Assembly (NCBI GenBank): GCA_937873155.1 | Contig: CALMVZ010000027.1 | Location: forward strand, 124,001-188,000 | Length of the DNA: 64,000 nt | Direction: 5' to 3' | DNA from: an uncultured Bacteroidota bacterium | Lineage (GTDB): Bacteria > Bacteroidota > Bacteroidia > B-17B0 > Aurantibacillaceae | Shown: in pieces, positions 4,129 to 57,294 of the stretch | Layout: each line of letters starts with the position of its first letter | How positions within the stretch are numbered: position 1 is the stretch's first letter | Translations under genes and position numbers: made by a program | The notes under the pieces: generated by a model | Databases searched by the model: none | The model's input: the letters and a program-made list of their open reading frames with translations, nothing else | Told to the model about the DNA's origin: nothing

Positions 4129-4151
4129 CAAAATTAAAATGAACTTATAAA

Positions 4152-4424: not shown

Positions 4425-4510
4425 AGATTCAAACTGTTAATATCTTTAGTAAAAATATAACAATTTTTTCAATCTGCAAATTTTTTGCGTTGGTCGCCTA
4501 AAATAGCCGT

Positions 4511-4891
4511 TTAGAAGATTTTAGCCTCCATGCTGATCTCAATATTGGCATCTTTTGGCAGCCTTTGAGCCTGAATGGTTGCCCTTGCGGGGAAGTCCTT
4601 TTTGAAGTATGAACTATACACTTCATTTACCTGAACGAAGTTGTTAATGTCGTTCAAAAAGATGGTAGTTTTTACTACATGGTCGAAGGTTAAACCGGCA
4701 GCCTTAAGAATAGCACCGATATACTCCATAACGATCTTGGTTTCTTCTTTAATATTTGTTTTTATGAGTTGTTTCGAATTCAGGTCCATAGCAAGGGTTC
4801 CTGAGATATAAACCGAATCTCCTACTATAACTGCCTGATTATAAGGGCCAATTGGTGCCGGAGCGTTAGGTGTATTGATTATCTTTTTCAT
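4511..4891 (-). CDS. ridA: RidA family reactive enamine/imine deaminase
   Basis: RidA hydrolyses 2-aminoacrylate and related enamines released by PLP enzymes, protecting them from damage. The protein carries the family signature: PIGPYNQAV near the N-terminus, YISGT, and FPARATIQAQRLPKDANIEI near the C-terminus. The conserved carboxylate-binding Arg (in PARAT) and the late Glu (NIEI) are present. ATG at 4891 gives 126 residues, the usual family length. An in-frame start 24 bases upstream would add an atypical MLSINTFF extension. It lies downstream of the zinc peptidase, but a terminator separates the two, so it is probably transcribed alone. Confidence 0.92.
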   Translation of the reverse strand: MKKIINTPNAPAPIGPYNQAVIVGDSVYISGTLAMDLNSKQLIKTNIKEETKIVMEYIGAILKAAGLTFDHVVKTTIFLNDINNFVQVNEVYSSYFKKDFPARATIQAQRLPKDANIEISMEAKIF

Positions 4892-4919
4892 AAAAAATGT
4901 ATTAATACTCAGCAAATAT

Positions 4920-4952
4920 AATAAAAAAGCCCTCCGCCGTTGGCGGAAGGCT
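4920..4952 (-). terminator. Rho-independent terminator of the zinc peptidase gene
   Basis: A hairpin at 4928-4952 (arms AGCCCTCCGCC and GGCGGAAGGCT, one mismatch) is followed on the minus strand by a T run (A run at 4923-4928). It lies 21 bases after the stop codon at 4973. Confidence 0.85.
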
Positions 4953-4972
4953 CTATAAGTTTTAACAAGCGG

Positions 4973-5674
4973 TTAATCGCGGTTATTTCCCAGGTATTTC
5001 ATGATGAAAAATATCAGGGTTGTAATAGAAGCCAGAGCCCCTACAAAGTAGGTGTAAGCTGCCCATTTCAGGGCGTCTTTTGCCTCTTCATGTTCGTGAT
5101 CGAAGGTCAATCTTGAGCTGTTCAACCATGCTAAAGCCCTTTGGCTGGCATCCACCTCCACAGGTAAAGTGATCACACTAAAAAGAGTGATAATGCCCTG
5201 GAGAACTATGAAAGTAAGGAGTAAACCGTTAGCCATGCTTGGCATCATGCCGCCTAAGAACAACATTCCTATTGATAAAAAGTTCATCAAATTAGAACTG
5301 ATCTGCACCGCCGGCACCATTTTACTTCTCATTTGCAACCATGAATAAGCAGTCGCGTGTTGAACAGCGTGGCCGCATTCGTGCGCAGAAACTGCAGCAG
5401 CAGCAACGTGGCGTCCGTGATAAACATCATTACTTAAATTCACAGTTTTGGTTGCGGGATTGTAATGATCGGTCAGTTGTCCTTCAACAGAAACAACTTT
5501 CACATCGTAAATTCCTGAATCGCGTAACATTTTTTCTGCGATCTCCTTGCCGCTTAAACCGCTCGACAATCTTTCCTGCGAGTATTTGGCGAATTTGGAT
5601 TTCAACCTCGAACTCACCGCTAAGCCGATAAGCATAAATACTATGCCTATCACTAATAAAATTGGATCAAACAT
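4973..5674 (-). CDS. Membrane zinc metallopeptidase, YugP family
   Basis: A 233-residue membrane protein of the YugP/Zn_peptidase_2 family. It has one N-terminal membrane helix (about residues 4-22), the zinc and catalytic motif HECGH (98-102) within SAHECGHAVQHA, and hydrophobic segments at about 130-175 and 205-228. The length matches the family. The physiological substrate of YugP proteins is not known; the active site probably faces the cytoplasm or the membrane surface. It is monocistronic, with a strong terminator behind it. Confidence 0.9.
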   Translation of the reverse strand: MFDPILLVIGIVFMLIGLAVSSRLKSKFAKYSQERLSSGLSGKEIAEKMLRDSGIYDVKVVSVEGQLTDHYNPATKTVNLSNDVYHGRHVAAAAVSAHECGHAVQHATAYSWLQMRSKMVPAVQISSNLMNFLSIGMLFLGGMMPSMANGLLLTFIVLQGIITLFSVITLPVEVDASQRALAWLNSSRLTFDHEHEEAKDALKWAAYTYFVGALASITTLIFFIMKYLGNNRD

Positions 5675-5898
5675 TTTCTTCTCTCTTTCTTTTTAGTTCT
5701 TGTTAAACAATTTGTGTTCCATTGCTTAATTCATGACAAAATTACAACTCCTGACGTAATGTTCTAGCCAAAGCCCGTTAAATATTGGCAGATTGCCATA
5801 GTTTACTAACATAAATTAACAAAGCGCTATTAGTAATTAAATTAGTTAACAACAGGAAAAGACATTATACAAGCTAGCTTTATAGTTTGGAGAAAACT

Positions 5899-6666
5899 AT
5901 GCAAAGACCATTGATATTTGTTACGAATGATGACGGGATAACCGCACCGGGAATTTTATTTTTAGTTTCCGTGGCAAAACAATTTGGTGACGTAGCAGTT
6001 ATCGCACCTGATAAACCGCAATCAGGAATGGGACATGCGATCACTATCAATTCAACTTTGCGTATCAATAAAAGTAATTTTCATGATGTGCTGATCGAAT
6101 ACGCTTGCAGCGGAACGCCTGTTGATTGTGTGAAAATGGCAGTGAATAAAATTCTTCCACGTAAAGCTGATCTTGTTTTGTCGGGAATAAATCATGGCAG
6201 CAATAGTTCAATCAATGTAATTTATTCCGGAACTATGTCGGCCGCGATCGAAGGTGCACTTGAAAGCACACCGGCCATTGGTTTTTCGTTGTGTGATTAT
6301 GGAATAGACGCGGATTTCTCTCAAGCCAGGAAAGAAATAGAAAAAATTATTGCAGAAACTTTGAAAAACAAATTACCAAACGGCGTTTGTCTGAATGTAA
6401 ATATTCCTAAACTAAAAGCAGATGAGTTGAAAGGCATAAAAGTGTGCAGGCAAGCCACTGCGAATTGGGTAGAAGAATTCGAAGAACGTAAAGATCCGTA
6501 TGGCCGTCCGTACTATTGGTTAACCGGTAAGTTCGTGAACTTCGAACCGGAATCAACCGATACAGATGAGTGGGCATTAGCCAATGGATTCATCTCAGTG
6601 GTGCCGACACAATGTGATCTTACTTCGCATAAAAATATTGAACCCTTAAAAAAATTATTACAATGA
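5899..6666 (+). CDS. surE: 5'/3'-nucleotidase SurE
   Basis: SurE removes phosphate from nucleoside monophosphates and is linked to stationary-phase survival. The N-terminal metal-binding motif TNDDG (residues 9-13), the SGTPVDCV block and SGINHGSN are all present; length is 255 residues. ATG at 5899 is preferred because a GGAG lies 10 bases upstream and the product then starts MQRPLIFVTNDDG, as in the family. A TTG at 5887 is also in frame. A TAGCTTTA -7-like element lies at 5875-5882. First gene of an operon; its stop overlaps the next start (ATGA). Confidence 0.95.
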   Translation: MQRPLIFVTNDDGITAPGILFLVSVAKQFGDVAVIAPDKPQSGMGHAITINSTLRINKSNFHDVLIEYACSGTPVDCVKMAVNKILPRKADLVLSGINHGSNSSINVIYSGTMSAAIEGALESTPAIGFSLCDYGIDADFSQARKEIEKIIAETLKNKLPNGVCLNVNIPKLKADELKGIKVCRQATANWVEEFEERKDPYGRPYYWLTGKFVNFEPESTDTDEWALANGFISVVPTQCDLTSHKNIEPLKKLLQ

Positions 6667-6977
6667 GTTGGTACGAAAGATTAGATAGTTTTTGGAAAGG
6701 CTTAGCGATCGGGATATTTTTTCCGATGCTTTGTTTCTTTTGTTATTGGTTGTTCCTGCACAGCTACATGAGTTTTCCCGGAAGGTTCATTAAGTATTTA
6801 ATATTCGGACAAATGCTCAGCAGCGTGATAAAAGTTTGTGCATTGGGCAACCTGCTGATCTTTTATTTTTTCCTGAACAAGCATATGAACAAAGCCACAA
6901 AGGGAGTTATACTGAGCGTTTTGCTATATGTGGGATTGGTTTTTTACGTCATGTATTTTCACGAAGGGGGTATATAG
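6663..6977 (+). CDS. Small membrane protein between surE and lpxB
   Basis: A 104-residue protein with three predicted membrane helices (about residues 13-36, 45-71 and 80-99) and short loops. The family is not recognised. Its start overlaps the surE stop by 4 bases and lpxB begins 1 base after its stop, so it is translationally coupled to both. The location suggests a role at the inner membrane, possibly linked to lipid A synthesis, but nothing in the sequence names a function. Confidence 0.75.
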   Translation: MSWYERLDSFWKGLAIGIFFPMLCFFCYWLFLHSYMSFPGRFIKYLIFGQMLSSVIKVCALGNLLIFYFFLNKHMNKATKGVILSVLLYVGLVFYVMYFHEGGI

Positions 6978-6978
6978 T

Positions 6979-8106
6979 TTGAAGTATTACATTATAGCCG
7001 GTGAGCCTTCGGGCGATTTACACGCTTCAAATTTTATGAAGGAGCTGAATCTGCTGGATAAGGACGCGGACTATAAATTCCTTGGCGGTGATCTGATGAA
7101 TAAAGTGGCGAATAAAAAGCCTACGATCCACATTGAAAAAATGGCATTTATGGGATTTGTGGATGTAGCGAAAAATTTAGGCAAGATCAAAACCAATTTC
7201 AAAATTGTAAAACAGGATATTCTCGATTACAAACCGGATGTCGTGATCCTTGTTGATTATCCCGGGTTCAATTTGCGAATGGCGAAATGGGCGAAAGAGA
7301 ATGGATTTAAAGTGTTCTACTATATTTCTCCAACCGTGTGGGCATGGAAAGAAGGACGGGTGAAAATAATCAAAGAGTATGTTGATTCAATGTTCGTGAT
7401 CCTACCCTTCGAACCGCCGTTCTATGAAAAGTATGATTGCAAAGCGGAATTCGTTGGCCATCCTTTATTAGATGCGATCGAAGAACGAAAGAAAACATTG
7501 TTGAGCAAAGAAGAATTTATAAAACAAAATAAACTCTCTGATAAACCTCTGATCGCTGTTCTCCCGGGAAGCCGCAGACAGGAATTAGACAGAATGTTCG
7601 ATATCATGTTACAGTTCAAAGACCGCTTTAAAGATTATGAATTTGTAATTGGTGGCACGAGTAATATTCCGAAGGAAATGTATACCAAAGCAACCGATAA
7701 AGGATTTAAAGTGGTTTACGATCAGACTTACGAACTCATGCAATATTCAAGGGCCGGCGTAATAAAATCAGGCACATCAACTTTAGAAGCAGCTTTGTTC
7801 GAATTACCTGAAGTAGTTTGTTACCGTGCCGGTGCTTTATCGTTATGGATAGCAAGACAAGTGGTGAACAAAGACTTAAAATATATTTCATTGGTGAATT
7901 TAATTATGGACCGCGAGATAGTGAAAGAATTGATCCAGCAGGATATGACGGTGGAGAATATTTCTAATGAGTTAAATAAATTGCTCAATGATGAAACGCA
8001 CCGTAACAACATCATTAAAGACTATAAAGAATTAAAAACAAAATTAGGAGGGGTTGGGGCTTCCAAAAGGATCGCCACTTCCATGTACGAACATTTAAAG
8101 AATTAA
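6979..8106 (+). CDS. lpxB: Lipid-A-disaccharide synthase LpxB
   Basis: LpxB joins UDP-2,3-diacylglucosamine and lipid X to form the lipid A disaccharide at the inner-membrane surface (GT19). The family signatures are clear: KYYIIAGEPSGDLHAS at the start, FKVFYYISPTVWAW, PFEPPFYEKYDCKAEFVGHP, AVLPGSRRQE, and AGVIKSGTSTLEAAL. The start chosen is TTG at 6979, just after the previous stop and 8 bases downstream of GAAGGGGG, a rare good Shine-Dalgarno match in this window. An upstream in-frame ATG at 6928 would add 17 atypical residues inside the preceding gene. Length is 375 residues, normal for the family. Confidence 0.95.
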   Translation: MKYYIIAGEPSGDLHASNFMKELNLLDKDADYKFLGGDLMNKVANKKPTIHIEKMAFMGFVDVAKNLGKIKTNFKIVKQDILDYKPDVVILVDYPGFNLRMAKWAKENGFKVFYYISPTVWAWKEGRVKIIKEYVDSMFVILPFEPPFYEKYDCKAEFVGHPLLDAIEERKKTLLSKEEFIKQNKLSDKPLIAVLPGSRRQELDRMFDIMLQFKDRFKDYEFVIGGTSNIPKEMYTKATDKGFKVVYDQTYELMQYSRAGVIKSGTSTLEAALFELPEVVCYRAGALSLWIARQVVNKDLKYISLVNLIMDREIVKELIQQDMTVENISNELNKLLNDETHRNNIIKDYKELKTKLGGVGASKRIATSMYEHLKN

Positions 8107-8129
8107 GAATGAAAAATTATGAATTAAGA

Positions 8130-9287
8130 ATGAAAAAAGTTGTTCCGGTGATATTTTGTTTTATTGGAGCATTAGCATTCGGGCAGGATATTGTTTATAT
8201 CAAAACATTCGCGCACCTGAAAATTGAAGCAGTAACTTTTTCGGTAGAGAAATCTACTTTCACTGTGTTTGGTGACGAAAAACCAATTCTAAAAAATAAT
8301 AACAACACTATATTAAAACTAACTTGTATCAACGACAGTGTTGAAGTAAAATCATTTGAAACAGTTTATGGGAAATTTAAAACGGTCCGTTTGGCAGATG
8401 ATGCAACCGGCGGTGAAATGAAACTGAAATTGATAAGTCCCGACAGGAAACAACGCGTTTACCCGGATAATTATATTGTAAGTACAGAAGCAGGACATCT
8501 GAAACTACTGAATGAAGTGAAATTGGATAATTACATTGCCGGTGTTGTTGAAGCTGAATCAGGAACCAGATCAACTCCTGAATTTTATAAAGTGCAGGCT
8601 ATTTTAGCAAGAACATTTGCTTTGGCTCACATTAATAAGCATTTGGCAGAAGGATTTTCTTTATGCGACCAGGTGCATTGCCAGGCTTACTATGGCAAAC
8701 CGCGTTTTGAAGGCATTACCGAAATGGTGTTGGATACCAAAGGAAAAGTTGTTGTAGATGAGAATTTAAATTTAATTGTAGCGGCGTTTCACAGTAACAG
8801 TGGCGGACAAACAGCCAACTCGGAAGATGTTTGGGGTACGCGTACATCTTATTTGCGGAGTGTGAACGATACCTTCAGTACAAGAATGCCAAATTACAAA
8901 TGGGAACGTAAAATGGCCATTGATGATTGGTTAAGTTATTTAAAACTGAAACATAAATATCCTATCGATGAACCGAATGCAAAAGAACTGGCTCTTAATT
9001 TCAAACAGGATTCGAGGAAGATTTATTTAGAAGCAAGTAACGTAAAAGTACCTCTGAAAAACGTTCGCCAGGACCTGCAATTAAAATCAACTTACTTTAA
9101 TATTTATAAAGACGGAGATTCTGTTGTGTTTGAAGGAAAGGGATATGGCCACAGTTTAGGAATGTCGCAGGAAGGTGCGATGCGTATGACGAAATTAGGA
9201 TATTCTTATAATGATGTACTGAATTTTTATTACCGCAACATCCAGATCATTGATATGAGGAAGTTGTCATTCTTCAGGGACGAGTAG
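8130..9287 (+). CDS. Secreted SpoIID/LytB-domain protein
   Basis: A 385-residue protein with a signal peptide (MKKVVPVIFCFIGALAFG|Q) and a SpoIID domain: LDNYIAGVVEAESG, YKVQAILARTFAL, NSGGQTANSEDVWG and the final GKGYGHSLGMSQEGAMRM block are all present. SpoIID proteins are lytic transglycosylases or amidase enhancers acting on peptidoglycan; outside spore formers the role is less clear. An upstream in-frame ATG at 8109 would add MKNYELR, but the signal peptide starts at 8130. The stretch GAATTAAGAATGAAAA is duplicated at about 8100-8136 around both starts. Last gene of the surE operon. Confidence 0.85.
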   Translation: MKKVVPVIFCFIGALAFGQDIVYIKTFAHLKIEAVTFSVEKSTFTVFGDEKPILKNNNNTILKLTCINDSVEVKSFETVYGKFKTVRLADDATGGEMKLKLISPDRKQRVYPDNYIVSTEAGHLKLLNEVKLDNYIAGVVEAESGTRSTPEFYKVQAILARTFALAHINKHLAEGFSLCDQVHCQAYYGKPRFEGITEMVLDTKGKVVVDENLNLIVAAFHSNSGGQTANSEDVWGTRTSYLRSVNDTFSTRMPNYKWERKMAIDDWLSYLKLKHKYPIDEPNAKELALNFKQDSRKIYLEASNVKVPLKNVRQDLQLKSTYFNIYKDGDSVVFEGKGYGHSLGMSQEGAMRMTKLGYSYNDVLNFYYRNIQIIDMRKLSFFRDE

Positions 9288-9308
9288 GGTTAAAAGTCAA
9301 AAGAAGCT

Positions 9309-10307
9309 CTATCGTTTTTCCTGTATAACCAAGGAATCGGTCACATAAAGTAATTTAACGATACGCATATTCTTTTTTATCGGATCACGGATGATGAATG
9401 AATTTAAGCGCTGGTTCGTTTTTTCAGTCACATAACTTATTTCTTTTAATTCAACATCATTCTTGTATTGCTTCTCGGTATAGATACAATTCATGTTATC
9501 CCGCTCGTAAGTATTCTTTAAAACCACATCACCATTGGCATTTCCTTTAAAAGTGGCGCTGGTCAAATGGCCTTTATCGTATGTGTAAGTAGTATTCTGA
9601 ATGATCCAGGTAACTGTATAACTTTCGTTCTTCGAAACAACATTGCCGGTAGAATCTAAATTCACAATAATTTCTTTATAGGGCCTGTTCTCGCTGTTCA
9701 GGCATATTTGTTTGTATTGGCGGGGATGAATATCCAGGTACTGAAAACTGTCCTCACTGATAACGACCTGTGTTCCTAAAATAAAATTCACTTTATCGCT
9801 GCTTAAATTAGTTTCTTTCAAACGACGTTCTTTTGTGACACGATGTTTCGAGTCGTAACTATAATAACGGCTTTCATAATACGAACCGTCGTTATAGCGT
9901 TTTAAAATAAGATCGGTGTTCTTATAAAAATAAACTGTTGAGATCGTATCATAAACATATTCATTCTTAAAATACACCGAACCATTACTGATCAAACGCC
10001 TTTTTCTGTAAACCGGTTGGGAATGGTATTCTTTTTCTATTGTTTTGATAATATTCGTATAGTAGAAACGCTTCAATAATCCGGTAGAGTCAAATTCGTA
10101 ATAATGCATCAGGTTCCTGTCAACCGGCGCTTCAAAGTCCTTTTTGTCTATAATATCAAAAGTGATGGATTTTATTCGTTGTTGTTTAATGAAAGGGGTA
10201 TTGAATTCCAGTAAAGGCTCGAAGGCTGAACTAGGCGTTGGCTTCAGTGTCTGACCCTGTGAAACAGCGAAAGAGAGGAAAAGGACTATGCTAAGAAGAT
10301 GTTTCAA
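9309..10307 (-). CDS. Secreted hypothetical protein with YD-like beta repeats
   Basis: A 332-residue protein with a signal peptide ([19 protein letters not shown]). The mature part has repeated Tyr/Asp strand units ([43 protein letters not shown]) like the YD-repeat or MORN-like beta-sheet proteins common in Bacteroidota. No catalytic motif and no sorting domain are seen, so a periplasmic or outer-membrane-associated location is likely. Its start overlaps the end of the upstream DUF255 gene by 17 bases, which suggests co-transcription. Function unknown. Confidence 0.75.
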
Positions 10308-20191: not shown

Positions 20192-21844
20192 ATGAACCCG
20201 ACCGTGAAAAAAACAAAACGAACAACTAAAAAGCCGGTTGCGGAACAAAAGAAAATTGAGGTCCGGAATTTGACCCTCAATGATTATTTAGGATTACGCG
20301 ATTCGATGACAGAAGCCTATAGGAATTGGCATGGTTCTGTATGGAATCAGAGTCATATTGAGTTGCTTTTGAAATTATTCCCCGAAGGACAATTTGTTGT
20401 TCTTTTTAACGACAGGGTAGTTGGTGTTGCCTTATCTATAATTGTTAATTATGATCTGTTCGGCGATGATCATACTTACAAACAGATCACAGGAGATTAT
20501 ACATTCAATACACACAAACCTTCAGGGGATGTGTTATATGGGATAGAGATATTTGTTCATCCCGATTACAGGGGATTAAGATTAGCACGCCGGTTATATG
20601 ACGCGCGCAAAGAACTTTGCGAACGTTTGAATTTGAAAGCGATCATTTTCGGAGGGCGAATACCAAATTATAAGGAGTACGCTTCCGAAATGAGTCCTAA
20701 AGAATATATTGATAAAGTAAGGTCGAAAGAAATTCACGACCAGGTATTGTCATTCCAGTTATCGAATCAATTTCACGTAAAAAAATTATTGACCAATTAT
20801 ATGCCGGGTGACGAGGAATCGAAAGCCTGTGCTACATTGATGGAGTGGAATAACGTTCTTTACGTCCGCCAATCAAAATTTGAGAAACACCGTAAGGTTA
20901 TTTCAAGGATCGGATTGGTGCAATGGGAAATGCGGCCGTTCAACAATTTTGAAGCATTATGTGAACAGATCGAATTCTTCGTGGATACTGTTGCAGGATA
21001 TCATTCTGATTTCGTGTTGTTCCCCGAACTTTTCAACGCCCCTTTAATGGCCGACTTCAACCATAAAACAGAAGCAGAGGCTATAAGAAGTCTCGCCGAA
21101 TTTACAGAACCTTTAAGGGATAAATTCATTGATTATGCGATTGCTTATAATGTGAATATCATTACAGGAAGTATGCCTTTTATTAAAGGCGGTAAATTAT
21201 ATAACGTCGGTTACTTATGCAGGCGTGACGGATCCATTGAGCGGTACTCAAAGATACATGTCACGCCGAATGAAGTAAGTGAATGGGGAATAGTTGGTGG
21301 GAACAGGATCAGGGTTTATGATACAGATGCCGGTAAGATTGGAATTTTAGTTTGTTATGATGTGGAGTTCCCGGAATTATCCCGCTTACTTGCATTGAAC
21401 GGTATGGAGATCTTATTTGTTCCTTTTCTCACCGATACTCAAAACTCTTTTACGCGCGTTAAAACATGTGCGCAGGCAAGGGCGATCGAGAATGAATGTT
21501 ATGTTGCAATTGCAGGTGGTGTAGGTAATCTTCCGAAAGTACATAACATGGACATCCAGTACGCGCAATCCGGAGTGTATACACCTTCCGATTTTTCGTT
21601 CCCAACTAACGGTATTAAAGCAGAGGCAACTCCGAATACTGAAACGGTATTGATCGTAGACGTTGACCTGGATCTTATTAAAAAATTAAGATTAACAGGA
21701 AGCGTCCGTAATATCCTTGACAGAAGGAGTGACCTATATGAGCTGAAGCAACTCAAACCGAATGGCAGATTGGAAGTATTGAAAGAACATGCGAAAACTA
21801 ATTACGTATTCAATTTTTTGAACCCTGATATTTTGAAGGATTAA
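20192..21844 (+). CDS. GNAT acetyltransferase - carbon-nitrogen hydrolase fusion
   Basis: A 550-residue two-domain cytosolic enzyme. Residues ~23-230 form a GNAT domain (VVLFNDRVVGVAL, then YGIEIFVHPDYRGLRLARRLYD with the acyl-CoA loop). Residues ~238-530 form a nitrilase-superfamily domain with catalytic Glu279 (LFPELFNAP), Lys354 (YSKIHVTPNE) and Cys388 (LVCYDVEFPE). This fusion is known in bacteria, but its substrate is not established; it may acylate and then hydrolyse a small amide. A basic N-terminal tail (KKTKRTTKK) precedes the GNAT part. It is followed closely by two universal stress protein genes, so a stress role is plausible. Confidence 0.9.
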   Translation: MNPTVKKTKRTTKKPVAEQKKIEVRNLTLNDYLGLRDSMTEAYRNWHGSVWNQSHIELLLKLFPEGQFVVLFNDRVVGVALSIIVNYDLFGDDHTYKQITGDYTFNTHKPSGDVLYGIEIFVHPDYRGLRLARRLYDARKELCERLNLKAIIFGGRIPNYKEYASEMSPKEYIDKVRSKEIHDQVLSFQLSNQFHVKKLLTNYMPGDEESKACATLMEWNNVLYVRQSKFEKHRKVISRIGLVQWEMRPFNNFEALCEQIEFFVDTVAGYHSDFVLFPELFNAPLMADFNHKTEAEAIRSLAEFTEPLRDKFIDYAIAYNVNIITGSMPFIKGGKLYNVGYLCRRDGSIERYSKIHVTPNEVSEWGIVGGNRIRVYDTDAGKIGILVCYDVEFPELSRLLALNGMEILFVPFLTDTQNSFTRVKTCAQARAIENECYVAIAGGVGNLPKVHNMDIQYAQSGVYTPSDFSFPTNGIKAEATPNTETVLIVDVDLDLIKKLRLTGSVRNILDRRSDLYELKQLKPNGRLEVLKEHAKTNYVFNFLNPDILKD

Positions 21845-29892: not shown

Positions 29893-29900
29893 TATCTTTG
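29893..29900 (+). promoter_or_regulatory. -7 promoter element for the STAS-like gene
   Basis: TATCTTTG matches TANNTTTG exactly, with TTTT about 21 bases upstream. It overlaps a possible GTG start at 29900, which argues for the ATG at 29909 as the true start, with only a few bases of leader. Confidence 0.5.
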
Positions 29901-29908
29901 TGTGCAAG

Positions 29909-30313
29909 ATGAAAAATATTGCACTTCCTTATGCAGTTATGCATTACGAAGATCCTATCGTAAGCATAATTTTCAAGGAAAAATCACAACTAGGATTTCT
30001 TGAAATACGTGAATTGACCCGGAATGCTGAAAAACTTAGCGGAGGCAAATATTATTTCACACTGTGTTATTTACCGGAGAAAATAAATATTACGCCATTA
30101 GGAAAACAGGTAGCATCTGATTTGAAGGAAGCTCCCTTGTGTAAAGGAAGTGCTATAATTGCAAAAAAGGACATTGTAAAGACTTCAGCAAATTTTTTTT
30201 ACAAAGCAAACAGATCGAAATTCATGTTCAAAGTTTTTACTGACGGGCAGGAAGCGCGTGAATGGCTTTTGAGTCAAAAAGACGAACAGGATCGTTATAA
30301 TGAGGCGGGTTAA
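29909..30313 (+). CDS. STAS/SpoIIAA-like small protein
   Basis: A 134-residue cytosolic protein. Its C-terminal half (AIIAKKDIVKTSANFFYKAN, then FKVFTDGQEAREWL) follows the same pattern as the two small proteins at 60.1-60.9 kb: an A-x-(I/V) strand, a helix ending in N-x-(F/L)-Y, and a final F-x-D-x3-(A/G)-x-E-W-L helix. That ending is typical of SpoIIAA-like STAS-fold proteins. No known partner is encoded here, but the SpoIIE-type phosphatase gene begins 240 bases downstream. The start is set by the -7 element overlapping the GTG alternative. Confidence 0.7.
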   Translation: MKNIALPYAVMHYEDPIVSIIFKEKSQLGFLEIRELTRNAEKLSGGKYYFTLCYLPEKINITPLGKQVASDLKEAPLCKGSAIIAKKDIVKTSANFFYKANRSKFMFKVFTDGQEAREWLLSQKDEQDRYNEAG

Positions 30314-30418: not shown

Positions 30419-30552
30419 TACTCAAAGAAAGAGGCACAAATTTAAGCTATTTTTTAATTTATTTCCTCCCTTACTGCAAGTTTAAAAGGTATTTCGGCTT
30501 AACCTATACCGAAAATTCTTGCTATATTTAGGTGGCTTATTTGCATTGCCTT

Positions 30553-33500
30553 ATGAAAAAACTAACATCCGCTTTAATTCTTTCCGTTATTCTCTTATCG
30601 TGTCAGAATAAGGACCTGCAAAAAAAGGATAATGCTGATACTAATGAAATAGTTGATAGCACCAGGCTTAATGCGAATCTTATCACTATCCGCCGCGCCA
30701 AACACAAAACAACCGAAGTCGGAAAACCTATAGTCACTAACGCAAAATCGCCGGCGGTCTACCCTACAAACACCAATATAAATAAGGTTGGGATCTTAGA
30801 AAGCACGGAGGTTCCGGCTGAGTTGTATACCACTATACCGGGTACTGACAGCTTAAAATTACCAACTGTTGTAACAGCGAAAGTAAATACGGTGGTGTGC
30901 GTTCAGCCTGTGCCTGTCGCAGCAACTCCGCCAAGATTTAAGGACGCTGCAATCAGTAACATCCAATACCTGGATGTAGAACAAGGCTTGAGTTCTTCCT
31001 TCATCCGTAGTTTATTGTTCGATAAAGAGGGAAATCTCTGGATGGGATCTGTTGGTGGCGGTGCCGGCAGATACGATGGATCATCATTTATAAATTTTAC
31101 GGAGAGCAATGGTCTAACCAATAACACTGTATTGTGTATGATACAGGATAAAAAAGGGCGCATCTGGTTTGGAACTGAAGGTGGCGGTGCATGTTGCTAT
31201 GATGGTAAGATCATGTGGCGTTTTACAAAAGATGAAGGGCTTAGTGATAATACCATTCTTTCATTATGTGAAGATAATAAAGGCAATATCTGGTTTGGAA
31301 CCAATGGAGCCGGCGTTTGTGTATACGATGGGAAAACAATAACGACTTACGATGAAGGAACAGGCCTTAGTAACAACACCATCCGTTCTATCATGCAGGA
31401 TTCGAAAGGAAGGATCTGGTTAGGCTCGAATGGTTGGGGCGCAAGTTTCTATGATGGAAAACAGTTTACATATTTCGGAACAGGTGCCGGTTTAAACAGT
31501 AAGATCATTCACTCTATCATTGAAGATGATAAAGGGAATATATGGTTCGGAACTGATGATGGCGGTGTGAATATCTACGATGGGAAAACAGTAAAATATT
31601 TAATGAAGAAGGACGGATTAAGTTCTGATTGTGTGATCTCGTTGAACAAGGACAGAAAAGGAAATATCTTAATGGGAACTTACGATGGCGGCCTCTGCAG
31701 TTACGATGGCGAAAAGATATCTGTCTTCTCCACACGCCAAGGTTTAAGTAATACTTATGTATTGTGTATCCGCGAAGATGCTTCAGGAAATATCTGGATG
31801 GGAACTTACGGAGGCGGCGTTTGTTTATACAACGGTTCATCATTCATGCATTACACCGAGCGTGAAGGTTTAGGCGGCAATACAGTGCGTTCAATTGTCC
31901 AGGGTGCCGATTCAAGTTTATGGTTCGGAACTTATGGCGATGGTGTGATCCATTATGATGGAAATAGTTTTTCGCATTACACTGAAAGCGAAGGATTAAG
32001 CAGTAATTATGTGAAAGCACTTACTACAGATAATTCCGGAAATATCTGGATGGGAACTGACGGCGGAGGAGCAGTACGTTTCAATGGAAAAACATTCGAG
32101 AATTTTGGTGAGGACCAGGGATTGAACAGTAATTATATTTTAAGCATGTTCAAAGATGCAACGGGAAGAATTTGGTTCGGGACAGATGGTGCAGGAGTTT
32201 GTTGTTATGACGGTGTAGCAATAACAACTTTCATGGATGATGCTGTACTCAGTGAAAATTCAGTTGTAGCGATCACCCAGGATAAATTAGGGAATCTCTG
32301 GTTTGCAACAGATGGTTATGGCGCCTGTTGTTATGACGGTGAATTCTTCAGATGGTATAGTGAAAAGGAAGGCTTGTGCAGTGACGATGTGAAATCGATC
32401 GTAATTGATTCTGATGGCAACGTGTGGTTTGGTACCAACGGAAAAGGCATAAGTGTTCTGAAAGCAAGTACAATTAAAAGCCGTAAACCTGAGTTCATTC
32501 ATTTTGATGAGAGTGAAGGATTAAGCAGTAAGAATATCCGTTCGATGATACAGGATAAAAGCGGTAACGTATGGATCGCGACTGAAAAAGGATTAAATTA
32601 TCTGGTGAAGAGGGATGGTAAATTTGTGAATTATGTTTACACAACAGCAAACGGATTAAAAGCCAATAACTTTTTTCCGAATAGTGTTTTTGTAGATACC
32701 GAAAATAAGATCTGGTGGGGAAATGGTAAGGCATTAACTGTACTGGATCTGGATCATTACAAATTATCAGATAAAGCCCCAACCATCCACTTATCAAGTC
32801 TTGAATTGGAACAAACCTTTATTGATTTTAATGCGTTGGAAGATTCACTTGAAAAAGGTGTTAAGGTCCAGGTAGGCGATAAAGTAAAAAAGAAATTAAA
32901 TAATATTGGTTTTAGCAGTTTAACCGGTTTTCATAATTATCCGAATGATCTTATTCTTCCTTATTATTTGAACCATCTAACGTTCCACTTTAGCGGAATT
33001 GAATGGTCAGCTCCTGATAAGATCCGGTATCAATACATGTTGGAAGGATCAAGTGATGATGACTGGAGCCCTTTAACTTCAGAGAACAAAGCTTCATTCA
33101 GTAACTTGTCGCACGGTGATTATACATTTAAAGTTAAAGCAATTGGTAACTCACATGTTTGGAGTGAACCTTTCGAATATAAATTTACTATTCAAGCGCC
33201 CTGGTATCTGCATCCGGGTGCTTATGCAGGATATATAATCGGTTTCATCAGCATTGTATTCGGATTTAACGGGGTGCGTACAAAACAATTAAAGATTCGT
33301 CAGCAACAACTCGAATTAACAGTAGCAGAACGTACATCAGAAGTGGTTCAGCAAAAAGAACTGATCGAGCAAAAACAAAAAGAAATTGTCGACAGTATCA
33401 ATTACGCTAAACGAATTCAGGGGGCGATGCTGGCGAGCGACCAGTTATTTGATTCGCATCTGCAGAATTATTTCCTGTTCTTCCAGCCAAAAGATATTGT

Positions 33501-34152
33501 AAGCGGCGACTTTTACTGGGCATCACCAATGGTGAACGGCAATTTTGTTCTTGTGACTGCTGATAGTACAGGGCATGGTGTTCCGGGTGCGATGATGAGT
33601 ATGTTGAATATCTCTTGTTTAAATGAGGCGGTGAGTGAACGTAAATTAACTGATCCTGCAGATATTTTAAATCATGCACGTCAGCGTATCATTTCTTCGT
33701 TATCTAAAGACGGAAGTTTGGAAGGCGGTAAAGATGGTATGGACTGTAGTGTGATCGTATTTGATTTTAAAAAGAAAAAAATGTTCTATGCAGGAGCTAA
33801 TAATCCTGTTTGGGTGGCCCGTAAAAATAAAGAAGGTGTAGTTGAATTGCTTGAATTAAAACCCGACCGCATGCCGGTTGGTAAACATGATAAAGATAGT
33901 ATTTCCTTCACCACACGGGAAGTGGAATTACATAAAGACGATATGATCTTTGCTTTAACAGATGGTGTGCCCGATCAATTTGGCGGTCCGAAAGGAAAAA
34001 AATTCTCGTATCGCAAGTTAAAGGAATTATTAATTGCCAATTCGGGAAAACCATTACCCGAACAAAGGCAAGCCTTGCAACATGCTGTAGATGTTTGGAA
34101 ACGTGATCTGGAACAGGTGGATGATATGTTATTGATGGGAATCCGGTTCTAA
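30553..34152 (+). CDS. Two-component-propeller / SpoIIE phosphatase lipoprotein
   Basis: A 1199-residue signalling protein. Residues 1-16 look like a lipoprotein signal with Cys in ILLSCQNK. Residues ~150-720 hold 14 propeller repeats (consensus G-N-I-W-F-G-T-x-G-G-G-V-C-x-Y-D-G, ~40 residues apart), enough for two seven-bladed propellers. A Y_Y_Y-like domain (~810-880) precedes one membrane helix (~887-905), a coiled coil (QKELIEQKQKEIVDSINYAK) and a PP2C/SpoIIE phosphatase (~965-1199) with SGDFYW, ADSTGHGVPGAMMS, GGKDGMDCS and TDGVPDQF metal-site motifs. The sensor faces the periplasm and the phosphatase the cytosol. Start ATG 30553 is chosen over 30532 for the signal sequence. Confidence 0.93.
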   Translation: MKKLTSALILSVILLSCQNKDLQKKDNADTNEIVDSTRLNANLITIRRAKHKTTEVGKPIVTNAKSPAVYPTNTNINKVGILESTEVPAELYTTIPGTDSLKLPTVVTAKVNTVVCVQPVPVAATPPRFKDAAISNIQYLDVEQGLSSSFIRSLLFDKEGNLWMGSVGGGAGRYDGSSFINFTESNGLTNNTVLCMIQDKKGRIWFGTEGGGACCYDGKIMWRFTKDEGLSDNTILSLCEDNKGNIWFGTNGAGVCVYDGKTITTYDEGTGLSNNTIRSIMQDSKGRIWLGSNGWGASFYDGKQFTYFGTGAGLNSKIIHSIIEDDKGNIWFGTDDGGVNIYDGKTVKYLMKKDGLSSDCVISLNKDRKGNILMGTYDGGLCSYDGEKISVFSTRQGLSNTYVLCIREDASGNIWMGTYGGGVCLYNGSSFMHYTEREGLGGNTVRSIVQGADSSLWFGTYGDGVIHYDGNSFSHYTESEGLSSNYVKALTTDNSGNIWMGTDGGGAVRFNGKTFENFGEDQGLNSNYILSMFKDATGRIWFGTDGAGVCCYDGVAITTFMDDAVLSENSVVAITQDKLGNLWFATDGYGACCYDGEFFRWYSEKEGLCSDDVKSIVIDSDGNVWFGTNGKGISVLKASTIKSRKPEFIHFDESEGLSSKNIRSMIQDKSGNVWIATEKGLNYLVKRDGKFVNYVYTTANGLKANNFFPNSVFVDTENKIWWGNGKALTVLDLDHYKLSDKAPTIHLSSLELEQTFIDFNALEDSLEKGVKVQVGDKVKKKLNNIGFSSLTGFHNYPNDLILPYYLNHLTFHFSGIEWSAPDKIRYQYMLEGSSDDDWSPLTSENKASFSNLSHGDYTFKVKAIGNSHVWSEPFEYKFTIQAPWYLHPGAYAGYIIGFISIVFGFNGVRTKQLKIRQQQLELTVAERTSEVVQQKELIEQKQKEIVDSINYAKRIQGAMLASDQLFDSHLQNYFLFFQPKDIVSGDFYWASPMVNGNFVLVTADSTGHGVPGAMMSMLNISCLNEAVSERKLTDPADILNHARQRIISSLSKDGSLEGGKDGMDCSVIVFDFKKKKMFYAGANNPVWVARKNKEGVVELLELKPDRMPVGKHDKDSISFTTREVELHKDDMIFALTDGVPDQFGGPKGKKFSYRKLKELLIANSGKPLPEQRQALQHAVDVWKRDLEQVDDMLLMGIRF

Positions 34153-41143: not shown

Positions 41144-42892
41144 ATGAAAAAGTTTTTATTTTCAGTTCTGGCTTTAGCATCTTTTGTTGCTATGGCCGAA
41201 AAAAAGCCGAACGGTGATGAAAAAGTAAAATATCTTGACGCTACAGTGAAGTCAGGCGACCTTACTGTTATCAGTGAAGGGGCTTATGCAAATGATGCTT
41301 TTATTAAAACAAAGGTACGTTTCGAGAATAAGAACGATTATTTTGTGGTAGTGGATCCTTCTCAATCGTATTTTTATGCCGGTGGCGCAAAAATTTTTGC
41401 TAAAGAGAAAGAATTGATCATTTCGCCTAACGGCAAGAAAGCAAATACATTTGATGTAAAAGGCAAGAACTTGAACGGACAAGCGGTTTCGTTGATCATT
41501 GATGGTTTGAAGAAAACCGGTAATGAGAAAATGATTGCTTTTCCTGAAATTGTTGCTTCAATTAAACGGAAAGAATCTTTCAAAGGAATTGATCTTACAA
41601 TCACTGATCTTGATTACAGCAAGGATTTTAAACTGACAATGAAGATCAAAGTGACCAATGTAGATAATGACATCGTTATTTTAAATCCGAGTGTTATTGA
41701 AATTAACGAAGGCGGTAACACTTTGAACAACATCCGCAAGCGTACCAGCAGTTGGATGATCAAGAAGGGTGAATCAGAGAGCGTAACACTATTATTCCAG
41801 GCGACAAGTGAAGGAAGCGAAAAGAAAATGGTTTGGAATGATGCCTTAGTAACAGCAGCATTATTACCAATGGAACCTGTTGAAATTATTTTGGGAACAT
41901 CGGAACAAGTGTTGAAAGATTACCGTCCTTATTTAGTACCGGCACCTCCTAAAAAGGAAGAGCCTGTTGTGGCAGCAGTGAATGATAAATCCCGTGCTAA
42001 AGAAAAAGAAGTAAAAAAGAAGGAGCCAAAAGCTAAACCTGTTAAAGAAGAAAAAAAGGCAGAACAAAAAGACGAACCGGTTTTAGCGAAAGAAGAGAAG
42101 AACAATAAAGATAAGCGCTCAGAGATCGCATCGGAGGGTGATATGGCAGAGTTACATGCGGCAGATGTTGATTTCAGTAAAGGTGGAAAATTCTACGCTT
42201 TGTTAGTGGGTTGTAGTGATTATACTGATCCTTCTATTTCTGATCTTGGTGGTTTGCCGGTTACTGATGCAGAAGCGTTAGCAACTTGTTTAAAAAAGAA
42301 TTACACCTTCGAAGAGCAAAATGTACAAGTATTAAAAAGTCCGACGCGACGTGAATTAGTTATTGCTTTAGATGAGATGTCGAAAAAAGTAACACCGGAT
42401 GATAACGTTTTGATCTTCTACGCAGGTCATGGACATTATGAAGATGATAACGATATCGGTTACTGGTTACCAAAAGATGCTGAAGTAAGTAACTCAGCCA
42501 ACTGGTTATATAACGACCAATTAGTAGCAGCGATGCGTAAGATAAAATCATTACATACGTTATTGATCTCAGATGCTTGTTTCAGTGGTAGTATCTTTAA
42601 GAACCGTTCGATCAGTTTAGTGGGAGCGAATGATGTTATTAAAAAGAAGTATCAATTGCCAAGCCGTAAAGCGATCACTTCCGGAACTTTAAAAACTGTT
42701 CCGAATAAGAGTGTATTCATTAAATATTTGTTGGACCGTTTAGAAAAGAACAAAGACAAATATTATTCTTCAGCAACATTGTTTCAAGCCATTGAAACGC
42801 CTGTAGGAAATAACAGCAGCAGCTTACCTCAATTTGGCGTCATCCAAAATGTAGGTGATGAGGGCGGTGATTTTATTTTTATTAGGAAGTAG
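41144..42892 (+). CDS. Exported caspase-fold (peptidase C14) protein
   Basis: A 582-residue protein with a signal peptide (MKKFLFSVLALASFVAMAE). The first ~270 residues form beta-rich domains; a Lys/Glu/Pro-rich linker follows (~275-335). The C-terminal ~240 residues are a caspase-like domain (FYALLVGCSDYTD; catalytic His429 in YAGHGHYEDD; Cys479 in SDACFSGS). Bacterial C14 proteins include orthocaspases and gingipain-like proteases. Export argues against a role as a cytosolic suicide protease; a periplasmic protease or processing enzyme is more likely. The dyad is intact, so activity is expected. The TTG of the next gene follows after 8 bases. Confidence 0.88.
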   Translation: MKKFLFSVLALASFVAMAEKKPNGDEKVKYLDATVKSGDLTVISEGAYANDAFIKTKVRFENKNDYFVVVDPSQSYFYAGGAKIFAKEKELIISPNGKKANTFDVKGKNLNGQAVSLIIDGLKKTGNEKMIAFPEIVASIKRKESFKGIDLTITDLDYSKDFKLTMKIKVTNVDNDIVILNPSVIEINEGGNTLNNIRKRTSSWMIKKGESESVTLLFQATSEGSEKKMVWNDALVTAALLPMEPVEIILGTSEQVLKDYRPYLVPAPPKKEEPVVAAVNDKSRAKEKEVKKKEPKAKPVKEEKKAEQKDEPVLAKEEKNNKDKRSEIASEGDMAELHAADVDFSKGGKFYALLVGCSDYTDPSISDLGGLPVTDAEALATCLKKNYTFEEQNVQVLKSPTRRELVIALDEMSKKVTPDDNVLIFYAGHGHYEDDNDIGYWLPKDAEVSNSANWLYNDQLVAAMRKIKSLHTLLISDACFSGSIFKNRSISLVGANDVIKKKYQLPSRKAITSGTLKTVPNKSVFIKYLLDRLEKNKDKYYSSATLFQAIETPVGNNSSSLPQFGVIQNVGDEGGDFIFIRK

Positions 42893-54400: not shown

Positions 54401-55720
54401 ATGAGAAAAATTGTTGCCATATTTTTTATTTTAGTTACTAATTGTTTGTTGTCGCAAAACAATCGGGTGGAGAAGGCTATTTTGTTTTTTAAAGGTCAGC
54501 CTGATATCAAAATTGCGGAGGCTTTTAACGACAGTAGTTTTGAAATTAAATTTGTGAATCCTGAGATTGCTGTTCAATTTGCTCGTACGGCCTTAGTGCA
54601 CTCTGAAAAAAGCAAGAATGATACTGTTATAGCTTCTTCATTTTTGTATTTAGGAACTGCATTTCATGTTATGAGCGCATACGATTCGGCAATGGTGTAT
54701 TATATGAAGGCAGAACAAAAATTTGTGAGACTGAAGGATGATAAAAGAATGGGAACTATATATCTTCATCTGGCGTCTTTATTTTCGGATGCAAAGGATA
54801 ATGTTAATGCTAAAGCATATTCGTACAAATCGATGAGTTATTTTGTTAGAGCAAAAGACACTAATAATTTAGCCGCCATATACAGCAACCTCGGAATATA
54901 TTACGATTATGATAATAAAACTGATTCAACCTTGTACTATTATTTTAAAGCACTTGATTTAAGAAAAAAGTATACGAAGATTAAACCGGAGCGACGGGCA
55001 CTTAATTTATCGGTTTCATATACTAATATAGGCCACCTTTATCAACACAAGTTAAGGGATTTGCAAAAGGCAATTTATTATTTCAATTTGGCCTTCGAAG
55101 AAGATGAAAAACACCCTGATGTTTTATATAAGATAGCAACTTACGAGAATTTAGCTAGCTGCTTTAATGATATGAAACAGTATGATAGATCTATTAATGC
55201 GGGATTGAATGGACTACGGTTAGCGAATTTAATAGGTAACTATCAGGGAAGGAATCGCTTATTTAAAACACTTTCTTCAGACTATTATTTCTTGAAAAAG
55301 TACGACTCAGCTTATTATTATATGAATGAGTATGCGATTTTTGTTGATAGTACTTACGCTCTCGAATCTCAGAAGGTAATTAGTGAGATGCAGCAAAAGT
55401 ACGAAAGCAATAAAAAATCAACAGAAATAGCTTTATTAAATAAAGATAAACAGAATTCAGAAACATTCAGAAAAACTCTTTATGTAATTATAGGATTGAT
55501 TTTAATTGTTGTATTGGCTTTAATTTATAGCTACGTACTAAAGCAGCGCTCCAACAAAAGTTTGGTTTTGAAAAATGAGGAAATTAATAAACAAAAACAT
55601 CTTATTGAAGAAAAGCAGAAAGAGATAATCGACAGTATTCGTTATGCCAAAAGAATACAACAAAGTTTAATGCCAACCGAGAAATATGTATTAAAAAAAA
55701 TAGGAGAACTGAAAAAATAA
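54401..55720 (+). CDS. Exported TPR protein ending in a phosphatase-linker sequence
   Basis: A 439-residue protein: signal peptide (MRKIVAIFFILVTNCLLSQ), about seven TPR-like pairs (~40-330), a membrane helix (~365-383), and a coiled-coil tail ending IIDSIRYAKRIQQSLMPTEK and then YVLKKIGELKK. The tail is the same linker that precedes the phosphatase in the propeller/SpoIIE protein (KEIVDSINYAKRIQGAM), yet no phosphatase follows. The next gene repeats this ending. The topology puts TPRs in the periplasm and the tail in the cytosol. Its stop overlaps the start of the next gene (TAATG). Confidence 0.85.
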   Translation: MRKIVAIFFILVTNCLLSQNNRVEKAILFFKGQPDIKIAEAFNDSSFEIKFVNPEIAVQFARTALVHSEKSKNDTVIASSFLYLGTAFHVMSAYDSAMVYYMKAEQKFVRLKDDKRMGTIYLHLASLFSDAKDNVNAKAYSYKSMSYFVRAKDTNNLAAIYSNLGIYYDYDNKTDSTLYYYFKALDLRKKYTKIKPERRALNLSVSYTNIGHLYQHKLRDLQKAIYYFNLAFEEDEKHPDVLYKIATYENLASCFNDMKQYDRSINAGLNGLRLANLIGNYQGRNRLFKTLSSDYYFLKKYDSAYYYMNEYAIFVDSTYALESQKVISEMQQKYESNKKSTEIALLNKDKQNSETFRKTLYVIIGLILIVVLALIYSYVLKQRSNKSLVLKNEEINKQKHLIEEKQKEIIDSIRYAKRIQQSLMPTEKYVLKKIGELKK

Positions 55721-57294
55721 TGAAAGCATACAGAATATTTATTGTTTTAGTATTCAGTTTTAATGTCCTGTTTTCGCAAGAACAAACTCAAATTGATTCC
55801 ATAAAAAAACTTATTCCTTCACTTAAGTCCGATACCGCACTTATCAGGAATTATCTATTGTTAGGAGAATGGATCCCGGATATTAAAGAGTGGTCGGCTT
55901 ACAATCAAAAAGGTCTTGAACTTGCAGAAAAGAATTTGAAGTTGTCTCCCGGTAAAACTGAGAGGGAGATATTATTGAAATACAAAGCAAGTGCTTTGAA
56001 CAACGTTGGTTATTATTACGCTCAGTTGAATGATAATAAGAAGGCTATCCTGAATTACGAACTCAGTAAAAAGATTTTCGTAGAATTAGGTGACAAGAAA
56101 GGTGAAGCAACTTCTCTTACAAACATTGGCGCTATTGAAGTAACAACAGGTCATGTTGCTGAAGCTGTTGTAAAATACGATCAGGCATTGAACCTATTCA
56201 AAGAGTTGGGAGATAGAAGCAATTCGGCAGTTGTATTGGGAAATATCGGTAGTATATACCTTAATCAGGGAAATTTAAAATTGGCCCTCGATCACTTTAC
56301 TCAAGCCCTGAAAATGAATATCACAACAAATAATGTTGCAGGAGAAGCAAGTGTTTATAATAACCTGGGTTCTGTTTATTATGAGCAAAAAGATTTTCAA
56401 ACCGCATTGGATTTCTTTTATAAGGCCCATAAGATCTACGAGAAGCAAAATGACAAATTTACAATGGCTAAAAGCTATTCGGATCTTGCGGTATATGTAA
56501 AGCCTCTTGACCGTGCTAAAAGCTTACATTATGATAGTCTCTCATTAAAATTATATACTGAATTGGGCCATGAGGAAGGAATGTCGAAGGCGTACAATAA
56601 TCTTGGCAGTACTTTCGCAGAGAAATTCCAGATTGAACTTGGATTGGAGTTAGTGAAAAAGGCATATTTTATCCGTGAAAAGATCGATCAATTGGAGCCT
56701 ATGTGCTTCTCTGCAAGGAACATTGCTGAAATGTACCTGTACATTCATAAATATAAGGATGCGTTGGAATGGGCAGATCGTTCGTATAGCCTGGCCAAAC
56801 GTATCGGAAGTATTAAAAATGTACGTAGTTCAGCAGAAACTTTAGCAAAGATCCATGCCAAATTTAAAGATTATGAAAAGGCATATCAGTATCATATCGA
56901 ATTTAAAACACTTAACGACAGCATCCTGAATAGTGATTCAAAAAATCTTGCTGCACAACAATTGGCTAAGATAGAATTTGATAAACGGCAGGCAGAATTA
57001 AAAAGAGAGCAAGATCAGAAAGACATGCTCAGCGAACAGGAAAAGCATAAGCAAAAGTTAATTACTATTTCAGTGAGCGTAGTTCTGTTCCTTGTATTGA
57101 TCCTCGCAATAATAATTTTACGTAGTCTCCGTATCAATCAAAAGAAGAATAAGATCATAACCGAGCAGAAACGTCTTGTTGAAGAAAAGCAAAAGGAGAT
57201 CATCGATAGTATCCGTTATGCCAAGAGGATCCAACAAAGCTTGATGCCTACCGGAAAATATATCACTAAGAAGATGGACGAATTGAAAAAATAG
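55720..57294 (+). CDS. Exported TPR protein ending in a phosphatase-linker sequence (paralog)
   Basis: A 524-residue protein with a signal peptide (MKAYRIFIVLVFSFNVLFSQ), about eight clear TPRs (YYAQLNDNKKAILNYELSKK; GNIGSIYLNQGNLKLALDHF), a membrane helix (~447-467) and a tail IIDSIRYAKRIQQSLMPTGK then YITKKMDELKK. It matches the ending of the upstream gene residue for residue over the linker and stops at the same point, before any SpoIIE/PP2C domain. The two genes overlap by one base. Role unknown; the shared tail suggests a binding module for a signalling partner. Confidence 0.87.
   Translation: MKAYRIFIVLVFSFNVLFSQEQTQIDSIKKLIPSLKSDTALIRNYLLLGEWIPDIKEWSAYNQKGLELAEKNLKLSPGKTEREILLKYKASALNNVGYYYAQLNDNKKAILNYELSKKIFVELGDKKGEATSLTNIGAIEVTTGHVAEAVVKYDQALNLFKELGDRSNSAVVLGNIGSIYLNQGNLKLALDHFTQALKMNITTNNVAGEASVYNNLGSVYYEQKDFQTALDFFYKAHKIYEKQNDKFTMAKSYSDLAVYVKPLDRAKSLHYDSLSLKLYTELGHEEGMSKAYNNLGSTFAEKFQIELGLELVKKAYFIREKIDQLEPMCFSARNIAEMYLYIHKYKDALEWADRSYSLAKRIGSIKNVRSSAETLAKIHAKFKDYEKAYQYHIEFKTLNDSILNSDSKNLAAQQLAKIEFDKRQAELKREQDQKDMLSEQEKHKQKLITISVSVVLFLVLILAIIILRSLRINQKKNKIITEQKRLVEEKQKEIIDSIRYAKRIQQSLMPTGKYITKKMDELKK

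Follow-up and report, generated by a model that had tools for sequence, protein, structure and literature searches.

A 64,000-nucleotide stretch of DNA from an uncultured Bacteroidota bacterium of the Aurantibacillaceae (GenBank assembly GCA_937873155.1, contig CALMVZ010000027.1, positions 124,001 to 188,000; hereafter the window) carries two adjacent open reading frames (ORFs), called T1 and T2 here, that encode TPR proteins with nearly the same C-terminal tail. A preliminary description of this DNA had pointed to two tandem TPR proteins with a common tail, and both ORFs are indeed present, with 36 of their last 45 residues identical and heads of 24% identity. The shared ending reads KQKEIIDSIRYAKRIQQSLMPTxKYxxKKxxELKK, and positions are given below relative to its DSI and RIQ triplets. 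The features of the pair are:

54401..55720, plus strand: T1, in which a signal-peptide-like start is followed by TPR repeats, a single membrane helix and the terminal linker tail
55484..55540, plus strand: predicted membrane helix of T1 (hydropathy window), 30 residues before the D of DSI
55583..55717, plus strand: terminal tail of T1, last 45 residues
55720..57294, plus strand: T2 (524 amino acids), likewise built of a signal-peptide-like start, TPR repeats, a single membrane helix and the terminal linker tail
57061..57117, plus strand: predicted membrane helix of T2 (hydropathy window), 28 residues (four heptads) before the D of DSI
57157..57291, plus strand: terminal tail of T2, last 45 residues

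T1 is 439 amino acids long from the ATG at 54401, the start used in the preliminary description, and 445 amino acids long from a TTG at 54383. Confident Pfam matches in both proteins are to TPR families only; neither has a Pfam match to SpoIIE (PF07228), and both chains stop 19 residues past RIQ. With a one-base overlap between the two ORFs, and just 63 bases from the T2 stop to the next ORF, there is no room for a hidden or frameshifted PP2C phosphatase domain behind either gene. The DNA of the two tails differs at many third codon positions, indicating that they are no recent copy of one another. In an AlphaFold2 model of T2 (57-row alignment; mean predicted local distance difference test score, pLDDT, 92.6) a continuous helix runs from residue 405 to 508 through the membrane to SLM, followed by a break at 509-511, a second helix at 512-523 and the end of the chain.

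A stretch similar to the tail had also been reported before the PP2C domain of a propeller protein at 30.5 kb of the window. This stretch, IVDSINYAKRIQGAM, sits between the Y_Y_Y and SpoIIE domains of that protein, which serves here as the fused comparison:

30532..34152, plus strand: fused protein of 1206 amino acids, ordered Reg_prop, Y_Y_Y, linker, SpoIIE (Pfam)
33349..33432, plus strand: its linker motif, QQKELIEQKQKEIVDSINYAKRIQGAML (profile match, frame reading, AlphaFold2 model)
33538..34149, plus strand: its SpoIIE/PP2C domain, joined to the linker (Pfam)

An AlphaFold2 model of the fused fragment (22-row alignment, pLDDT 88.5) has a helix at 2-55, a helix at 59-65 and the first PP2C strand at 68. 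Comparison with the T2 model indicates that the tail holds both helices that precede the first PP2C strand and ends at about the point where this strand starts. Just ahead of the propeller gene is a 137-amino-acid ORF (29900-30313), perhaps the STAS-like protein of the preliminary description.

We searched the window's own genome (4.85 Mb, 39 contigs) with a 45-column profile of the T1 and T2 tails and found the linker motif at 78 places. When these copies are read to the stop codon they fall into the two classes that the preliminary description had proposed counting: 39 end 0-10 residues past the match, and the other 39 continue for 198-266 residues and run into a SpoIIE/PP2C domain. None of the 78 frames ends 11-197 residues past the match. 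The terminal copies stop 16-26 residues after RIQ in 39/39 cases, and in their DSIxYAKRIQ core the S, Y, A, second I and Q are each present in 39/39. Conservation of this core is about equal with or without the enzyme. The two sets diverge past a shared LLP, where terminal copies carry a signature, EKYIxK..L, that is mostly absent from the fused copies, whose consensus is like LPxSFVLYKPKDIVSGDFYW. Specifically, E or D at RIQ+7 occurs in 36/39 terminal versus 16/37 fused copies, K or R at RIQ+8 in 35/39 versus 5/37, Y or F at RIQ+9 in 38/39 versus 5/37 (tyrosine alone in 37/39 terminal copies), K or R at RIQ+12 in 38/39 versus 14/37, and L at RIQ+17 in 30/38 versus 0/37, the fused counts covering 37 of the 39 copies as two failed the pattern. 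A profile of the terminal stretch, trained on 36 of the same 39 terminal tails, separates the two sets at 20.9 bits or more for terminal and 13.1 bits or less for fused copies.

These 39 copies all come from one genome and are thus paralogues, not orthologues. Among 99 longer terminal proteins from named contigs, tyrosine at +9 occurs in 89 and lysine or arginine at +12 in 96, in a set drawn from loci similar to the tail and thus not unbiased. The same holds for the 78 named loci, which were picked by tail similarity and divide into 67 terminal, 9 fused and 2 in-frame-joined, figures that are not an unbiased rate. The possibility that the tail is a frequent fortuitous end of a coiled coil, with no conservation at its last residues, is ruled out by the terminal signature. 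A subfamily of tails in which LHEKNKxVMDSI-like linkers replace EEKQKEIIDSI is found in the own genome (C25:150879 and C25:152729), in an array on contig C29 of genome G475 and on contig C160 of genome G480.

The tail behaves as a module that is conserved beneath variable heads. Among 595 pairs of 35 longer terminal proteins the median identity is 25% for the head and 56% for the tail. Codon identity at conserved tail sites is 0.45, relative to 0.43 expected under independent usage, which rules out recent duplication or gene conversion of the tail. Between the membrane helix and the D of DSI there are 28, 35 or 42 residues in 27 of 35 terminal proteins (four of the 39 lack a membrane helix and were left out), and 28 or 35 in 17 of 30 fused proteins (those with no membrane helix or a distance of at least 60 were left out); binomial values for this spacing overstate the case, as paralogues inherit spacing by descent. 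With or without an enzyme behind it, the rod usually measures four, five or six heptads. The heptad-spaced helix from membrane to output that would mark a dimeric coiled-coil linker is found here, the T2 model having one unbroken helix at 405-508 and T1 having a spacing of 30. In the set of own-genome proteins that was scanned, the tail is also found at the end of one propeller protein (Reg_prop/Y_Y_Y), of two 7TMR-DISM proteins and of two TPR proteins that lack a membrane helix.

That the tails are leftovers of SpoIIE proteins that have lost their enzyme is hardly credible. Broken genes do account for two of the 39 own-genome terminal copies, one with a frameshift after the membrane helix (C2:14012-14143) and one a deletion remnant with signal peptide and tail (C2:76913-77023). 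Against decay as the origin of the family, the stop position and last residues are kept over the 39 own-genome copies and the 99 named-contig proteins, codons are saturated while residues are kept, and intact tandem arrays exist. The earlier view that the common stopping point of T1 and T2 is not random truncation therefore gains from the size of the family, with its dozens of paralogues, from the terminal signature and the conserved heptad register, and from the range of input architectures.

Some tails are joined in frame to a further sensor. One frame of 2412 amino acids (locus L279, G455:C16:12000-31000, 2817-10055) contains five tails, one of 2085 amino acids (locus L280, G446:C14:95000-107000, 3341-9598) contains four, and further joins occur at loci L094 and L118. 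Internal tails run into a signal-peptide-like stretch and then the next sensor, so a free C-terminus is seemingly not required.

A candidate enzyme for the tails lies on contig C10 of the own genome, where a tail gene (C10:538045-539508) is followed after 12 bases on the same strand by a gene for a 237-amino-acid PP2C (C10:539521-540234). This protein starts MEAVATETKNFFILYKPKDIVSGDFYY and consists of the catalytic domain without the linker. PF07228 has 42 rows in this genome that represent 41 genes, two rows on contig C12 lying in one frame; 39 of these genes have the linker, one is RsbU-like without the motif (C10:520731), and one is the stand-alone domain. The latter scores 78.7 bits to PF07228 relative to a curated cut-off of 25 and is thus a SpoIIE family member. 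The metal-binding motifs are kept across 40 stand-alone sequences, of which one is truncated at a contig end (SGDFY in 40, ADxTGHG in 40, TDG..DQ.GG in 37 and Q[VI]DD in 39). Position 11, beside the break, is phenylalanine in 40/40; fused PP2Cs have serine, tyrosine or histidine there in 57/79 and phenylalanine in 7/79. The arrangement of SiaA and RsbU, with a linker directly before PP2C, is found in the fused proteins, and neither T1 and T2 nor the stand-alone PP2C has it.

A PP2C domain tree of 96 rows places all 17 stand-alone ones (10 from relatives and 7 inside the 78 named tail loci) on one side of a branch with support 97/97, in a bootstrap that was not fully settled; with shuffled labels the average is 15.9 changes. 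That region of the tree also holds a fused clade with members from genomes G000, G006 and G007, and the last two have no tails, indicating that these fused relatives do not follow the tails.

The split pair on C10 suggests the stand-alone PP2C as the enzyme of the tail sensors, and this predicts that the two should occur together. We tabulated genomes in the order tail and stand-alone PP2C / tail only / stand-alone only / neither. Among 41 relatives, own genome included, tails (E≤1e-3) occur in 15 and linker-less orthologues in 10, all within the 15. Among the matches listed, the orthologues are frames of 179-243 amino acids with 64-100% identity, and the table is 10/5/0/26 (Fisher 2.7e-6). 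A tail cut chosen post hoc would give 10/1/0/30; the raw table stands here, with the one- or two-match genomes G009, G011, G012 and G024 counted without individual inspection. Across the 87 genomes of the order, a set that overlaps the 41, the matches listed place tails (E≤1e-5) in 34 and a stand-alone PP2C in 31, with a table of 30/4/1/52 (Fisher 6.8e-18). Thus a stand-alone PP2C is recognisable in 30 of 34 genomes with tails and in 1 of 53 without. When labels were shuffled within genera, 30 was reached in 0 of 20000 trials, the maximum being 23. The weakest stand-alone PP2C accepted has E 3.7e-96 (G021), and a genome whose best PP2C match was weaker than about 1e-77 was counted as lacking one on E-value alone; G487, with a 272-amino-acid PP2C frame at E 9.5e-96 that lies 154 bases from a contig end, was also counted as lacking.

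The exceptions in the order were inspected. The tail match of G471 is the linker of a fused phosphatase; that of G490 is a relic in a 36-amino-acid frame, with no longer tail gene within the 4.5 kb looked at; and G449, which has the stand-alone gene, carries two diverged terminal tails. The table then becomes 31/2/0/54, a figure that reflects inspection of the exceptions and not of the fitting genomes, and our argument rests on the raw 30/4/1/52. Outside the order, 16 relatives were available, of which G031 and G039 have both tails and a stand-alone PP2C. The others have no match of stand-alone strength among the matches listed, and G030, the sole one of them with tail matches, has three that are all linkers of fused phosphatases.

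The tails do not track fused phosphatases in the same way. No tails occur in G006 or G007, two genomes of one genus whose SpoIIE rows number 50 and 59 and whose best PP2C matches are in frames of 510 and 651 amino acids. G000-G005 have 26-57 tail matches (E≤1e-5) relative to none in G006 and G007 at similar SpoIIE row numbers; within this genus, then, an entire class of sensors has come or gone at an unusual pace. SpoIIE occurs in 295 of 395 genomes of a phylum sample, where convincing tails were found in the own genome only, plus two marginal matches, with at most 21 candidates per genome scored by a model trained on the own genome. Unlike the phosphatase domain, the tail family looks lineage-restricted and patchy. 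A Bacteroidota-type linker-SpoIIE gene was also seen on a contig filed under Candidatus Saccharibacteria (locus L150), where wrong binning is a guess.

These distributions bear on another idea, in which each tail would pair with the linker of a fused SpoIIE protein in a mixed coiled-coil dimer and so modulate or poison that phosphatase. The shared core residues and heptad spacing of the two sets would fit such dimers, as would the presence of SpoIIE rows in all 15 relatives with tail matches and the tail genes that adjoin fused SpoIIE genes (C11:482810-484932, C36:87558-91218, C10:185360-189993). However, tail-less G006 and G007 are rich in SpoIIE, the phylum sample has SpoIIE in most genomes and convincing tails only in the own genome, the tails track the linker-less PP2C instead, and the signature past LLP is mostly absent from the own-genome fused linkers. 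We consider mixed dimers unlikely. The fused SpoIIE protein of the window and the nearby STAS-like proteins, suggested as partners in the preliminary description, do not appear from sequence to be the best candidates; a single free-standing catalytic subunit, with its gene outside the window, is the most likely partner.

Gene order adds to this. At 33 stand-alone loci from a whole-genome search, a tail stop lies within 140 bases upstream at 11 and within 12 bases at 8. Tail genes often overlap or abut, and in G005 and G031 an array of three tail genes is followed by PP2C. One may still ask whether the tail docks some other partner and the stand-alone PP2C is gained and lost alongside the tail genes without direct contact. 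This would suit the 22 of 33 loci with no tail stop within 140 bases upstream of PP2C, and the evidence that links the two is confined to co-occurrence, gene order and homology. Yet the pieces match at the break, the tail stopping at about the first PP2C strand and the PP2C beginning there, and the split-like order with a gap of 12 bases or less recurs at 8/33 loci. Coincident gain and loss without contact is accordingly a doubtful account, and we give it little credence.

From co-occurrence, gene order and homology, then, T1 and T2 are probably sensor subunits of a split SpoIIE-type Ser/Thr phosphatase. With somewhat less assurance, though still on balance, we favor a many-to-one hub, in which up to about 90 membrane or soluble sensors per genome would complement one shared PP2C in trans, the split having occurred once and the sensors having multiplied in bursts, which would leave dozens of them in one species and none in a close relative. 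In the mechanism that we propose, T1 and T2 would each sense through TPRs in the periplasm and cross the membrane by one helix, which leads into a cytoplasmic rod that is presumably a dimeric coiled coil. The end of the rod would be the helix-turn-helix that precedes the first PP2C strand in fused SpoIIE/SiaA-type proteins and forms part of the phosphatase dimer there. The enzyme would be the separate 237-amino-acid PP2C (C10:539521-540234), which lacks those helices and starts at the first strand. As the stand-alone PP2C is without the first dimer helix and the tails are made of dimer helices, we propose complementation in trans: an activated sensor dimer would present two helix-turn-helix tips, two PP2C copies would dock, and docking would give the dimer back its linker/alpha0 part and thereby turn the phosphatase on (or keep it off), with activity set by the state of the rod. 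One catalytic subunit would serve dozens of sensors, in the manner of CheA and its chemoreceptors. The protein anatomy, the signature of the tails, their register, the natural split on C10, the co-occurrence and the single stand-alone clade are observed; we infer the docking, its stoichiometry, the sign of regulation and the substrate. A partner-switching output is possible, given an RsbW-like HATPase_c_2 match in the own genome (C36:65954-66316, E 8.8e-26), the one strong match.

Several observations weigh against this interpretation. Tyrosine at +9 also occurs in 6/21 fused linkers of named loci, which were chosen for likeness to the tail, so the signature is not absolute and single positions are not diagnostic. 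The genomes are not independent, and within-genus shuffling leaves subclade structure. In a genome scored as having no stand-alone PP2C, a diverged one could have been overlooked. G475 (11 tails at E≤1e-5, 58% complete) and G480 (one tail, 76% complete) have no stand-alone PP2C among the matches listed. Incompleteness of these metagenome-assembled genomes is a likely, though unproven, explanation, and both carry the LHEKNKxVMDSI-type subfamily, which might use another partner. Only 11/33 loci have a tail gene within 140 bases of the stand-alone one, and with a single PP2C for 39-89 sensors it could be that many of the tails act otherwise.

Two other genes of the window are recorded for completeness. 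The protein encoded at 41144-42892 has a caspase-like Peptidase_C14 domain in its C-terminal part, and the one at 20192-21844 has a GNAT acetyltransferase domain followed by a carbon-nitrogen hydrolase domain in a single chain.

If the split phosphatase is real, it would be a bacterial phosphatase counterpart of the chemoreceptor/CheA arrangement, made by halving a common sensor-phosphatase, and the linker/alpha0 module of SpoIIE-type enzymes would be a transferable docking part. Many TPR membrane proteins now without a function would gain one, and the linker-activation model of RsbU and SiaA would become testable by mixing two natural pieces. As a rule for annotation, proteins that end ...YAKRIQ...EKYI... 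would be phosphatase sensors and not plain TPR proteins. The parts are already known; the split, the many-to-one ratio and the sensor bursts are undescribed in the literature searched. The motif YAKRIQ gave no match there, and a split SpoIIE system is undescribed in its titles and abstract openings, coverage that misses most subscription journals.

Among known systems, the closest solved structure is the PP2C domain of SiaA from Pseudomonas aeruginosa (6K4E). The window's fused fragment aligns with it through the linker, which in SiaA is GDSLDYASLIQRAILP, and the model of this fragment superposes on 6k4e_B (Z 32.4, rmsd 2.0, 244 residues aligned, SiaA 409-662). For the stand-alone PP2C only the catalytic part aligns, from chain position 76. 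The NCBIfam SiaA model (NF038263) matches far below its cut-off, and NCBIfam gave nothing stronger. SiaA is ordered from residue 407 and forms a homodimer via helices alpha1, alpha2 and alpha3, according to the part of the paper available (PMC7647112). By our alignment the motif would belong to SiaA alpha1, the text available giving no helix limits. The suggestion of the preliminary description that the tail may be a docking or dimer module used without the enzyme thus finds support, in that the tail is homologous to helices placed by alignment at the dimer interface of SiaA, and in the family size, signature, register and input range described above. The difference is that SiaA has linker and PP2C in one chain, whereas here there would be two chains, with one PP2C facing dozens of sensors.

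In RsbU of Bacillus subtilis, as described in the portion of the report available (PMC12143880), crossing coiled-coil linkers dimerise and activate the PPM domains via alpha0, alpha1 and alpha2. The logic of a linker-driven dimer that activates the enzyme is also what we propose here; however, the RsbU linker is covalent and is ordered by the separate RsbT, whereas here the sensor would supply the linker in trans. A survey of bacterial PP2C domain arrangements draws TPR among the partner domains, and the word 'linker' is absent from its text as far as that is available (PMC12088040). The fused TPR-, propeller- or 7TM-linker-SpoIIE proteins of Bacteroidota, of which the window's propeller protein is an example, have a linker of like kind and heptad spacing, but their PP2C is in cis and the terminal signature is absent from most of them. 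Chemoreceptors combine variable heads with a constant cytoplasmic tip, and many of them share one enzyme, CheA. That enzyme is a kinase in an extended array, whereas the system proposed here would pair a phosphatase with a short helix-turn-helix, and the likeness is one of arrangement with no homology claimed.

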